64,000 nt of DNA from contig NZ_CP104043.1 of assembly GCF_025152745.1 (NCBI RefSeq), positions 248,001 to 312,000 on the forward strand. The letters run 5' to 3'. This document shows positions 14,123 through 63,856 of this stretch, piece after piece; within the stretch, counting starts at the first letter, position 1; every line of letters starts with the position of its first letter. The notes under the pieces were generated by a model. The model saw only the letters and a program-made list of their open reading frames with translations, did no database searches and had not been told where the DNA came from. A program made the position numbers and the translations under genes. This stretch comes from Rhizobium sp. WSM4643. GTDB lineage: Bacteria; Pseudomonadota; Alphaproteobacteria; Rhizobiales; Rhizobiaceae.

Positions 14123-14182
14123 ATGGCCCCTTTTCAGGCGGGGGCGCGCACGGGGCGGTTCGTGCGGACGGTGCCGCGGCCC

Positions 14183-14272
14183 CGAGCGACTCCCTCCGCC
14201 GGCATTACCCGGTTCAGGTTCGAAGGGTGCTTCTCAGCCCGTCTTCCGACGGGCGCCCCTGTCTCTCATCAC
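14183..14272 (-). promoter_or_regulatory. TPP riboswitch (THI element)
   Basis: Read on the minus strand, the leader contains the conserved THI-box blocks in order: GGGGCGCCC, a variable hairpin, GGGCTGAGA, ACCC, GAACCTGAACCGGGTAAT and GCCGGCGGAGGGA. It ends about 60 bp before the thiM start codon. It should bind thiamine pyrophosphate and lower expression of thiMED. No terminator hairpin with a U-run follows, so control is more likely at translation initiation, the usual mode in Proteobacteria. Confidence 0.93.
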
Positions 14273-61315: not shown

Positions 61316-62080
61316 TTATCGCGCCAGCCAACCGCCATCGACGGGCAGCACCGTTCCATGCACGTAGTCGGATGCCGATGATGCCAGGAATACGGCCGCG
61401 CCGCCGAGTTCATCAGGCGTTCCCCAGCGACCGGCCGGGATGCGGCCAAGGATGGCGGCATTGCGGTCGGCATCCTCGCGCAGCGCCGTGGTGTTGTTGG
61501 TGACGAAATAACCGGGGGCGATGGCATTGACGTTGACGCCCTTGCCGGCCCATTCGCAAGCAAGCAGCTTCGTCAGTCCCGCGAGGCCGCTTTTCGAGGC
61601 GGTATAGGAGGGAATGCGGATGCCGCCCTGGAAGGAGAGCAGCGAGGCGATGTTGATGATCTTGCCCCTGCCCTTGTCGACCATGTGGCGGCCGGCCGCC
61701 TGCGACAGGAAGAAAGCCGTCTTCAGGTTGACGTCGATCACCGCGTCCCAGTCTTCCTCGGTGAAGTCGAGCGCATCGGCGCGGCGGATGATGCCGGCAT
61801 TGTTGACGAGGATGTCGAGGCCGCCGAAGGTCTGGATGGTCTCAGTGACAATCCGCTTGACCGGTTCGATGCTGGCAAGATCGGCCTTGATGACATGGAA
61901 GCGGCTTCCCGCTTCCTTCACCAGCGCCTCGGTTTCGTCCATCGAGGAGCGTCCGACGGCGACGATCGACGCACCAGCCTCTGCCAGTGCGGCCGCGATG
62001 GCTTGGCCGATACCGGTATTGGCGCCGGTGACGACGGCAACCCGGCCGGAAAGATCGAAGGGATTTGCCACGACGCTCAC
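61316..62080 (-). CDS. kduD: 2-dehydro-3-deoxy-D-gluconate 5-dehydrogenase
   Basis: A 254-residue SDR that reduces 2,5-diketo-3-deoxygluconate to 2-keto-3-deoxygluconate in pectin/uronate degradation. TGANTGIG, NNAGIIRR, NIASLLSF and YTASKSG carry the cofactor and catalytic residues, and the length equals other KduD proteins. The start is GTG, overlapping the kduI stop by 4 bp (GTGA), indicating coupled translation. Confidence 0.92.
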   Translation of the reverse strand: MSVVANPFDLSGRVAVVTGANTGIGQAIAAALAEAGASIVAVGRSSMDETEALVKEAGSRFHVIKADLASIEPVKRIVTETIQTFGGLDILVNNAGIIRRADALDFTEEDWDAVIDVNLKTAFFLSQAAGRHMVDKGRGKIINIASLLSFQGGIRIPSYTASKSGLAGLTKLLACEWAGKGVNVNAIAPGYFVTNNTTALREDADRNAAILGRIPAGRWGTPDELGGAAVFLASSASDYVHGTVLPVDGGWLAR

Positions 62081-62913
62081 CTCAGATCCGCAATGGCGAT
62101 ATGGTCCATGTCGGTGAAGCTCTTATTGTCGCCGGCCATCGCCCAGATGAAGCTGTAATTCTTGGTGCCGGCGCCCGAATGGATCGACCAGGGCGGCGAG
62201 ATGACCGCCTGTTCGTTGGCGACAAGCATATGCCGGGTCTGTTGCGGCTCGCCCATGAAGTGGAACACACGCTGCTCCGCTTCCAGATCGAAATAGAGAT
62301 AGGCTTCCATGCGGCGGTCATGCGTATGGGCAGGCATAGTGTTCCAAACGCTGCCCGGTTCGATCATGGTGAAGCCCAGCGTGAGTTGGCAAGACTGGCA
62401 GACGTCCGGATGGATGAACTGGTAGATCGACCGCTTGTTGGCCGTTGCGGCTTCGCCCGGCGTCAGGTGACGGGCCTTTTCGCGGGTGAGCAACACGGTC
62501 GGGTGCGCTTGATGCGCCGGCGTCGAGACCAGATAGAATTTTGCCGGATTGGCAGCATCCGCGCTCTCGAACCTGATGTCCTTGGCGCCCTTGCCGACAT
62601 AGAGGCAATCATATTTGGCAAGATCGTAATTCGTGCCGTCGACGATGATGCGGCCGGCACCGCCGATGTTCAGGGCGCCGAGTTCACGCTCAGCAAGGAA
62701 GGTTTCCTGTCCGATCGCTGTCGGAGCCGTCAGCGTTAGCCCGGGGCCGAGCGGCGTCGCGCCGCCGATGACCATCCGGTCGTAATGCGAATAGGTGAGC
62801 CGGATCTCGCCACTCGCGAAGACGGTTTCCACCAGAAAATGACGCCGCAGCGTCTCCGTGTCGAAATTGCGCACGGCCTCGGGATGGGAGGCGTGCCTCA
62901 CGTCGATCTGCAT
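62077..62913 (-). CDS. kduI: 5-dehydro-4-deoxy-D-glucuronate isomerase
   Basis: A 278-residue cupin-type isomerase, the same length as E. coli KduI. It converts 5-keto-4-deoxyuronate to 2,5-diketo-3-deoxygluconate. The zinc ligands lie in PAHTHDRRMEAYLYF (two His, one Glu) and in WSIHSGAGTKNYSF (His). It is the first gene of the kdu operon; its promoter region carries a FadR-type operator. Confidence 0.94.
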   Translation of the reverse strand: MQIDVRHASHPEAVRNFDTETLRRHFLVETVFASGEIRLTYSHYDRMVIGGATPLGPGLTLTAPTAIGQETFLAERELGALNIGGAGRIIVDGTNYDLAKYDCLYVGKGAKDIRFESADAANPAKFYLVSTPAHQAHPTVLLTREKARHLTPGEAATANKRSIYQFIHPDVCQSCQLTLGFTMIEPGSVWNTMPAHTHDRRMEAYLYFDLEAEQRVFHFMGEPQQTRHMLVANEQAVISPPWSIHSGAGTKNYSFIWAMAGDNKSFTDMDHIAIADLR

Positions 62914-63016
62914 GTCAATTTTCCTTCCGCTTCATTGTCGCCACGGGTCGTCTCTATCTCGGGAGCCAGTCTTGTCCGGCCGGTCCCGCCGCGGCGGTAT
63001 CCAGTTGGTTACATAG

Positions 63017-63027
63017 TTGTACGACAA
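63017..63027. promoter_or_regulatory. FadR-type GntR operator upstream of kduI
   Basis: TTGTACGACAA fits the TNGTNNNACNA consensus of FadR-branch GntR regulators exactly. It lies about 105 bp upstream of the kduI start and within the only long upstream region of the operon. The GntR protein encoded at the operon end is the natural ligand. Confidence 0.6.
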
Positions 63028-63191
63028 GTTTGCTGTCAACAGGTTTGTCGGTGGGCGCTTGAGGAGACGCAAGGCCCGCAAGAGCACGAAAGAAAATCTG
63101 GGAATAACAGGAGAATTTCTGGAAATGATTACGCCATCATCCAAGCGGTCGTTCTTGGCGCGATCCGGCAGTGCTATTGGCCAAAACGAAA

Positions 63192-63225
63192 AAAGCCTGC
63201 CGCGGGAGGAGGTGCGGCAGGCTTT
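63192..63225 (-). terminator. last anti-SD hairpin, also the Rho-independent terminator
   Basis: A perfect 12-bp stem (AAAGCCTGCCGC with GCGGCAGGCTTT) encloses a 10-nt loop, ACCTCCTCCC on the minus strand. Minus-strand T residues follow directly, interrupted by one CG. It is therefore both the fifth member of the anti-Shine-Dalgarno hairpin series and the transcription end of the DUF1127 unit. Confidence 0.85.
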
Positions 63226-63240
63226 CGTAAAAAACCGAAC

Positions 63241-63265
63241 GACAGCTGGGAGGAGGAGTGCTGTC
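63241..63265 (-). ncRNA. anti-SD hairpin 4 of the cuckoo/CcsR-like array
   Basis: The stem GACAGC/GCTGTC (6 bp) encloses a 13-nt loop containing CCTCCTCCC (minus strand, 63248-63256). It lies 15 bp before the terminating hairpin. Predicted to be processed from the DUF1127 transcript. Confidence 0.7.
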
Positions 63266-63275
63266 ATTCCACAGA

Positions 63276-63299
63276 CGACCCTGGGAGGAGGACGGGGCG
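63276..63299 (-). ncRNA. anti-SD hairpin 3 of the cuckoo/CcsR-like array
   Basis: CCTCCTCCC (minus strand, 63283-63291) sits in the loop of a stem made by a CGCCCC/GGGTCG pairing with one internal mismatch. This is the least stable stem of the set, and the exact ends are uncertain. Confidence 0.6.
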
Positions 63300-63306
63300 C
63301 CTGTAC

Positions 63307-63342
63307 ATCGAAGGGACGCGGGAGGAGGTGCATCGCTTCGAT
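63307..63342 (-). ncRNA. anti-SD hairpin 2 of the cuckoo/CcsR-like array
   Basis: An outer 7-bp stem (ATCGAAG at 63307-63313 with CTTCGAT at 63336-63342) and a short inner pairing hold CCTCCTCCC (minus strand, 63320-63328) in the apical loop. Confidence 0.7.
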
Positions 63343-63465
63343 AGAAATAATCATACTTATTTTCTTGCTCAGTTGATAGGCATTTCTTTGCAGGGCAGCT
63401 ATGCGTTATGCGAAAAGCGGGAGGCTCGATTCACCTGGTCCATCTGCCGGAAGCACAAAAAGCAA

Positions 63466-63493
63466 AGCGCCCGCTCGGGAGGAAGCAGGCGCT
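63466..63493 (-). ncRNA. anti-SD hairpin 1 of the cuckoo/CcsR-like array
   Basis: A 10-bp stem (AGCGCCTGCT and AGCGGGCGCT on the minus strand, with one G-U pair) encloses an 8-nt loop TCCTCCCG, a shortened form of the motif. It lies 35 bp after the DUF1127 stop codon, so it is the first hairpin of the transcript. A weaker CCTCCC with a 4-bp stem at about 63417-63428 may be a degenerate extra copy. Confidence 0.65.
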
Positions 63494-63528
63494 GGCATGG
63501 TCTTGAAGATGCTTGGTCTAAGCTGCCG

Positions 63529-63675
63529 TTAGCGGGCGATGGCTGCGCGGGCGACGTTGCGGATGTCGCCGCGGCCGATGCCGAGGTCGTCCAGTTCGCG
63601 TGCGGACATACGACCCAGTTCAGCGACCGTCTGACGATACTTGCGCCAGTTATTGAAAGAGCGTGCTACGTTCAT
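63529..63675 (-). CDS. DUF1127 domain protein (CcaF1-like)
   Basis: A 48-residue, strongly basic protein, MNVARSFNNWRKYRQTVAEL followed by a region with LDDLGIGRGDIRNVAR. That is the DUF1127 signature (helix, RELDDLGI, helix). GGGG followed by ATCATC precedes the ATG. In Rhodobacter a DUF1127 protein encoded ahead of CCUCCUCCC sRNAs binds RNA and influences their maturation; this gene has the same context. It was found by translating the region, being short. Confidence 0.88.
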   Translation of the reverse strand: MNVARSFNNWRKYRQTVAELGRMSARELDDLGIGRGDIRNVARAAIAR

Positions 63676-63856
63676 GATGATCCCCTTTCGTGGGCTTTCG
63701 AAGCTTAGCTGCCAGTCCTTGGCGCTTCGTTCGCTTCGATGAGGTGTATATAATATGAGACCGCCAATTATTGCAGCGCCAATGCGTCAGTGCACCTATG
63801 CGGCGCTTGCATGGGTCGCGATGTTTTGCAGCGTCAGGATCCGAACCGCTTCGCGG

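Follow-up and report, generated by a model that had tools for sequence, protein, structure and literature searches.

The evidence assembled here points to two adjoining units that are likely transcribed separately under a single LsrB/VtlR activator, namely a DUF1127 mRNA and an alpha-r14 small RNA (sRNA) that would block Shine-Dalgarno (SD) sequences. Both lie on the minus strand at the end of the window (i.e., the whole 64-kb stretch of DNA that was analysed), where a 48-aa DUF1127 gene is followed first by a hairpin and its T tract and then, past a spacer, by four hairpins whose loops carry CCTCCTCCC. Judged by its sequence, the RNA is of a known kind, and the two-promoter layout and the common transcript start are useful new details. 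Two literatures meet at this one locus, that on LsrB control of alpha-r14 sRNAs and that on VtlR control of DUF1127 genes. An assumed common origin, in which the sRNA derives from the DUF1127 mRNA, is thereby replaced by a testable alternative of one regulator and separate promoters, for which the exact boxes and start sites are named below.

The window is a portion of C4, a 407-kb contig and one of four that make up a genome of 6.44 Mb. A search of plasmid records with the locus found 417 with a match. The best were from Rhizobium. Among the 30 matches listed, R. sp. SRDI969 came first at 99.5%; others, together with R. leguminosarum and relatives, followed at about 95-97.5% identity. The 541-bp locus was matched in 37 of the 37 same-genus genomes searched (own genome counted; some matches partial) and, among other genera, in 3 of 24 genomes, each at an E value of 1e-4 to 1e-3 only. 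This type of locus occurs on many Rhizobium plasmids. Downstream, the array adjoins a KduI/IolB-family gene (62077-62913, minus strand), and pRL11 of R. johnstonii 3841, whose copy of the locus is 96.5% identical, has at the equivalent spot genes for kduI, kduD, a GntR-family regulator and cellobiose phosphorylase.

The DUF1127 gene is on the minus strand, as the preliminary description had it, and occupies 63529-63675. Residues 3-39 of its 48-aa product span the full PF06568 profile at 61.7 bits, against a cut-off of 23.3, so that the protein falls in the short DUF1127 class (47-48 aa, with the domain filling the protein).

Behind this gene, a four-hairpin sRNA of about 158 nt is predicted at 63186-63343 (minus strand), its ends being set by analogy with SmelA099 of Sinorhizobium meliloti. 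According to the fold, hairpin 1 spans 63306-63343 (loop motif 63320-63328), hairpin 2 63270-63305 (63283-63291), hairpin 3 63237-63269 (63248-63256), and hairpin 4 63186-63228 (63204-63212); the last is followed by a T tract past its stem and is probably also the sRNA terminator. For the 160-nt array the predicted fold has an energy of -70 kcal/mol (z -7.7), which none of 200 shuffles matched, and all four motifs sit in open loops. On both strands of the 64-kb window, exact CCTCCTCCC is found only in these four minus-strand loops, the number previously counted. Shuffled windows had a mean of 0.64 matches, and 4 were reached anywhere in the window in 1 of 100 shuffles, versus 4 within 125 bp here. 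Genome-wide the motif is not enriched (69 matches versus 75 for the reversed control); it is thus the clustering and the hairpin context that constitute the signal, and the count by itself is no evidence. A 140-aa open frame (62932-63354, minus strand) overlaps the array; it is probably spurious, and gene callers could annotate it.

The covariance-model search that the preliminary description had proposed gave a split answer. The Rfam model ar14 (RF02344) matches 63310-63188 over its full length (1-123) with 102.3 bits, against a gathering cut-off of 58.8, and CcsR1 (RF02791) scores the array at 28.8 bits, under its threshold of 65.3. The ar14 match holds three hairpins with unpaired CCUCCUCCC, and a fourth such hairpin, hairpin 1, lies upstream of the match. 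On these scores, the array is a copy of the known rhizobial alpha-r14 (ar14) sRNA, not a new kind of RNA, and belongs to the alpha-r14 branch rather than to CcsR1; its four-hairpin form is the homologue of the S. meliloti sRNA SmelA099. Cuckoo RNAs reportedly carry 2 to 4 adjacent CCUCCUCCC hairpins each, and the window has four of them, adjacent and on variable stems, as in the cuckoo RNA and SmelA075-SmelA099 family. The assignment to an anti-SD hairpin family made from the letters alone therefore holds, the family being that of the CCUCCUCCC RNAs (ar14; SmelA075/SmelA099; cuckoo). The sole other Rfam match in the 64-kb window is a TPP riboswitch at 14174-14270 (minus strand; RF00059, 67 bits).

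The conservation of this fold was assessed on an alignment of 60 distinct four-hairpin arrays, chosen by four motifs spaced 28-60 nt; one row (L117) is a different type of array. On the RNAalifold structure, 98.7% of 2151 cells are paired. Changes on both sides are seen in 23 of 36 pairs, versus 6.9 +/- 1.3 in shuffles, and amount to 123 cells, versus 28.2 +/- 5.6, a value reached by none of 500 shuffles. With the partner slid, both-side changes are confined to 7 pairs and 23 cells or fewer, a comparison that favours the unslid structure because that structure was drawn from the same alignment. The pairs with both-side changes are distributed over all four hairpins: none of 5 in the outer stem and 2 of 3 in the inner stem of hairpin 1, 6 of 6 in hairpin 2, 9 of 10 in hairpin 3, and 6 of 12 in hairpin 4, in which 100% of cells are paired. 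The four loop motifs, in turn, have mean unpaired probabilities of 0.996, 0.98, 0.997 and 0.999, as compared to an average of 0.27 over the remaining positions of the RNA, and are unpaired at 0.8 or above in 60, 59, 60 and 60 of the 60 rows, respectively. The stems thus vary while the loops are kept, as had been proposed from the window itself; absent covariation and loop conservation among relatives had been named as grounds for giving up that proposal, and both are seen across the 60 arrays.

A fifth hairpin, counted with the other four in the preliminary description, does exist at 63466-63493 (minus strand), but we rejected it as an anti-SD element and regard it as the Rho-independent terminator of the DUF1127 gene, with the loop CCTCCC and then a T-rich tract. 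The 91-nt stretch around it is of ordinary stability (z -1.1). We surveyed 69 distinct loci with a DUF1127-like ORF and an array, drawn from 110 loci (L021-L130); a terminator-like hairpin lies between the two in 68 of the 69, and in 49 of the 50 loci of the promoter comparison below, although the relatedness of these 50-69 loci means that such counts, here and below, are not of independent events. When 50 loci are aligned, the GC-rich stem and the T tract of this hairpin are kept and the loop changes. Its loop carries CTCC or CCTC in only 22 of the 69 loci, 21 of which have a window-like GCGCC stem; even among the loci with that stem the loop drifts (CCTCCC, CTTCA, CCCC, TTCCC), and in many relatives it reads TGATGAC or similar.

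The promoters of the two units were compared in 50 loci, i.e., the window and those 49 of the best 80 DUF1127 relatives that have at least three motifs 100-450 nt past the DUF1127 stop. The alignment reveals a conserved block, GCATAGCTGCACTG, together with a TATGAT-like -10, between the terminator and the array, and GCATGGGTG-like and CTATATTC blocks upstream of DUF1127. Both the array and the DUF1127 promoter blocks fit the VtlR box, published as GCAT-N3-TG-N3-T (PMC7486931; PMC8844928). In the window, the DUF1127 box, CGCATAGGTGCACTG, is at 63788-63802 and is followed by a probable -10 at 63747-63755, either TATATA (63747-63752), as the aligned relatives suggest, or TATTAT (63750-63755), which overlaps it. 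The array box, CGCATAGCTGCCCTG, is at 63391-63405, with the GCAT-N3-TG-N3-T part at 63392-63404, and its probable -10, TATGAT (63350-63355), lies 49 nt past the box start; all four elements are on the minus strand.

At nearly fixed positions, the box occurs at the array promoter in 44 of the 50 loci and at the DUF1127 promoter in 38, as compared to 16 matches per 213,472 strand-bases (0.005 per 70 bases) in control stretches of those loci. The 15-base Brucella motif, at 11 or more identities, is found at 46 of 49 arrays, 30 of 49 DUF1127 promoters and 17 of 388 control stretches. By both measures, the DUF1127 box is the weaker of the two. The array box stands 74-76 nt ahead of the first loop in 43 of the 44 loci that bear it. 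A TATAAT-like hexamer (at least 4 of 6) lies 48 nt past the array box start in 39 of 44 loci, with at most 8 of 44 at the other offsets from 36 to 63; past the DUF1127 box start it lies at 49 nt in 36 of 38, the next best offset being 51 nt, with 21. A strict form of the box, YGCATDSSTGCNNTG, which was written after the alignments had been seen, has 13 matches in the own genome, versus 2 for its reversed control; 6 are before ar14 copies, 1 is before the window DUF1127 gene, and 6 are elsewhere. The array box of the window is one of the 13. Of the eight ar14 copies, two (L003 and L008) have no box. A VtlR-type box also precedes a 56-aa ORF (MSALRNSIRTGFF...) at C1:3789093 (minus strand; L138), a possible further member of the regulon. 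This ORF was considered as a DUF1127 gene and rejected, as it has no significant Pfam match.

For the transcript starts we relied on SmelA099, which was sequenced as a 160-nt RNA at pSymA 1328334-1328175 (PMC2873474). That stretch contains four CCTCCTCC loops, begins with AATCGAAGCGATGCACC, and has a box, GCATGGCTGGGTT, at -59; by homology, the start of the window sRNA is placed at about 63343. Relative to this predicted start, the array box (63404-63392) spans -61 to -49, and the LsrB-type motif of the abcR1 promoter is likewise given at -61 to -49 (PMC8844928). The array box is thus at the expected distance from its putative start, and the DUF1127 box is at a like distance from its own -10. 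The first bases of the sRNA, ATCGAAGCGA, recur in the DUF1127 leader at 63731-63740 (minus strand), and the DUF1127 transcript should start at about 63740. The motif AHCGAARCGA (A-A/C/T-CGAA-A/G-CGA), which covers both sites, is found at the array start in 36 of the 50 loci, in the DUF1127 leader in 35, and at both in 26, versus 2 matches per 225,372 strand-bases of control; within the sRNA it contributes to the 5' arm of hairpin 1. We propose, tentatively and with somewhat less than even confidence, that a single promoter was duplicated together with the ten bases at which its transcript begins (AHCGAARCGA), and that the DUF1127 gene and the sRNA in this way became the two arms of a common LsrB/VtlR switch. 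If so, one redox- and nitrogen-linked regulator would set free, at the same time, a small protein that binds a sensor kinase and an anti-SD RNA with four barrels. Rhodobacter has an operon at this place, to which a pair of promoters would be the alternative.

A candidate for this regulator is encoded in the own genome, in the form of a gene on C1 for a 303-aa LysR protein (PF00126, PF03466) followed by two ar15 (AbcR) genes. An ORF for a pyridine-nucleotide-disulphide oxidoreductase precedes the LysR gene, and an arsR-family ORF comes after. The order reported for Agrobacterium is trxB, vtlR, abcR1, abcR2, arsR (PMC7486931), and on the strength of this synteny we take the LysR gene to be the VtlR/LsrB orthologue. 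LsrB is described as binding and activating the alpha-r14 sRNA NfeR1 (PMC10746234). In Brucella, VtlR is an activator of three DUF1127 genes and of AbcR2 (PMC12595884), and in Agrobacterium it activates atu1667, which is orthologous to two of the Brucella DUF1127 genes (PMC7486931). Under the conditions of PMC7486931, the AbcR sRNAs of S. meliloti are reported not to be controlled by LsrB; the regulon thus differs between species and reports.

Taken together, these elements suggest the following sequence of events. A VtlR/LsrB-type LysR regulator would bind GCAT-N3-TG-N3-T about 61 nt before each start. From the first promoter would come a short mRNA for the 48-aa DUF1127 protein, ending at its own terminator, and from the second an alpha-r14 (cuckoo, SmelA099-type) sRNA of about 158 nt, presumably independent of the first, with four CCUCCUCCC loops. 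These loops would pair with the purine-rich SD regions, GGGAGGAGG, of many mRNAs, and the pairing would block translation, as reported for NfeR1 in S. meliloti.

The main alternative is a CcaF1-CcsR-type operon, in which DUF1127 and the hairpins form one transcript that is cut by RNase E, with the DUF1127 protein aiding maturation. The preliminary description had favoured such CcsR-like processing, and in its support the gene order in Rhodobacter is identical (PMC10253847) and the array does give a weak CcsR1 match, the 28.8 bits noted above. A search of genome contigs with the DUF1127 protein, which confirmed at least 205 relatives, is also in its favour, in that 53 of the best 80, which were kept, have two or more CCTCCTCC motifs within 600 nt past the DUF1127 stop, on the same strand. 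Most of these loci have their first loop some 200 nt past the stop. Against this model, two or more motifs lie upstream of DUF1127 in 8 of the best 80 loci (one of which, L124, has one downstream as well). No motif is near DUF1127 in a further 19, including L102, which ends at the stop because the contig does, and 3 loci have antisense motifs. The loci L101, L109, L119, L120, L126 and L127 have two groups of 2-3 motifs upstream of DUF1127 and no single downstream array, the second group in L126 being one motif.

The copies within the own genome bear on the same question. Eight ar14 copies exceed the cut-off, as compared to none in 14 control genomes, and four of them, of which three lie on C3 and one is the window copy, have the fourth, upstream CCTCCTCCC hairpin. 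There are also eight DUF1127 matches, and yet only three ar14 copies (window, C3:205164 and C1:1719203) are within 700 bp of one; the other five have no listed DUF1127 neighbour. SmelA099 itself is on a replicon, pSymA, whose whole record of 1,354,226 bases contains 0 DUF1127 matches. A terminator parts the gene from the array in 68 of 69 loci, and a box and a -10 are kept ahead of the array. The terminator and the conserved array promoter do not support processing from the DUF1127 mRNA, and we consider the operon model unlikely; cleavage of the array out of that mRNA, as in Rhodobacter CcaF1-CcsR, is improbable, and read-through from DUF1127 into the array may still occur.

Two arrangements among these copies are recorded here in their own right. 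At C1:1718218-1719321 (minus strand), an ar14 copy, a DUF1127 gene, an ar14-like match of 27 bits and a second DUF1127 gene are found together (L003, L009, L014, L016), in what looks, from this arrangement, like an old tandem duplication. On C3, two near-identical four-hairpin copies (C3:516268 and C3:336423; L005 and L007) have similar flanks and no DUF1127 match nearby, and by their likeness are a recent duplication.

With separate transcription as the preferred reading, we turn to what the sRNA may act on. Loop complementarity of at least 8 nt ahead of the start was found for 5 of 343 simple ORFs in 399,296 bases of the own replicon. On that replicon, GGGAGGAG gave 4 matches, the top of 28 letter permutations with a range of 0-4, which is a weak result. 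Genome-wide, GGGAGGAG-N2-10-ATG has 60 matches versus 8 for the reversed control, at least one of them antisense within an ar14 copy. Among the first 30 of the 60 in contig order, 20 stand at the start of an ORF that is 100 aa or longer, and ABC-transporter parts are encoded by 6 of the 20, a count on these first 30 from which no enrichment is claimed. A second SD-like word, GGGAAGGA, has 31 matches versus 12 reversed, and 7 of the 30 retrieved stand before an ORF of that length. The likeliest targets may be ABC-transporter and other metabolic genes, for which the evidence is thin.

It has also to be considered that the sRNA might be mainly a protein sponge, i.e., that DUF1127 or another protein binds the repeated CCUCCUCCC loops and that pairing with mRNAs matters little. 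The same loops on differing stems would suit pairing and multivalent protein binding equally well, and CcaF1 is reported to bind RNA (PMC10253847; PMC12501420), a finding treated as a puzzle in PMC12501420. Short DUF1127 proteins are described there as binding PhoR and acting on it through protein-protein contact. That mode of action counts against a sponge, as do the five of eight own ar14 copies that have no listed DUF1127 neighbour and the reporter tests in S. meliloti, in which the loops of NfeR1 pair with mRNAs and repress them (PMC10746234). On balance we regard a sponge as improbable.

The least probable reading, and indeed a very improbable one, is of the array as one of eight ar14 paralogues that has fallen silent or is decaying and is maintained by plasmid spread: genomes do carry several copies, the own genome has a weak ar14-like match (L009, 27 bits), and northern blots reliably showed just one of the six copies in S. 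meliloti (PMC7143759), so that the window copy could be silent, but nothing is missing from its promoter, its stems or its four loops, all of which are conserved across species, with covariation in the stems.

The unit that emerges, a probably independently transcribed alpha-r14 sRNA behind a DUF1127 gene, can be set against several known systems. A DUF1127 gene beside anti-SD RNAs is a known arrangement, as had been stated at the outset, and is named CIN1 in print (PMC10253847). Among the matches listed in our literature searches, none joined DUF1127 with NfeR1, and PMC10253847 was the only one to combine DUF1127 with alpha-r14, SmelA099, SmelA075 or cuckoo RNA. No statement of common LsrB/VtlR promoters for DUF1127 and alpha-r14 was found in the literature searched, outside of which lie the original cuckoo and CcaF1 papers. 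A DUF1127 gene of S. meliloti is reported to have a uORF attenuator (PMC12218461).

In Rhodobacter sphaeroides CcaF1-CcsR1-4, as in the window, anti-SD hairpins come after DUF1127 and share its strand. There, however, RNase E cuts a single transcript driven by RpoHI/RpoHII, whereas in the window a terminator and a second promoter part the two units; CcaF1 is 71 aa long, and the window protein 48 aa. With alpha-r14 (RF02344), of which NfeR1/SmelC397 is an example, the window sRNA shares CCUCCUCCC loops on variable stems, a terminator-like last hairpin, and an LsrB-type motif before the promoter. NfeR1, the alpha-r14 founder, is described as LsrB-activated and NtrC-repressed, and as silencing ntrBC via its aSD loops (PMC10746234). 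Unlike NfeR1/SmelC397, the window sRNA has four hairpins rather than three, is on a 407-kb replicon rather than the chromosome, and has DUF1127 directly upstream.

SmelA099 has been grouped with SmelA075 among three- and four-hairpin CCUCCUCCC sRNAs that occur in several copies per genome and are stress-linked (PMC3927594). It shares with the window sRNA the four loop motifs, a near-identical 5' sequence, ATCGAAGCGATGCACC, and the same last hairpin. Its length is 160 nt and its box is at -59, as compared to about 158 nt and -61 in the window, and it differs in residing on pSymA, the replicon with no DUF1127 match. Finally, the VtlR/LsrB regulon, which comprises AbcR1, VrsA, Atu1667 and the Brucella DUF1127 genes, has the same box that is found at both window promoters, and the own genome has the syntenic LysR gene, whose product is predicted to bind there.
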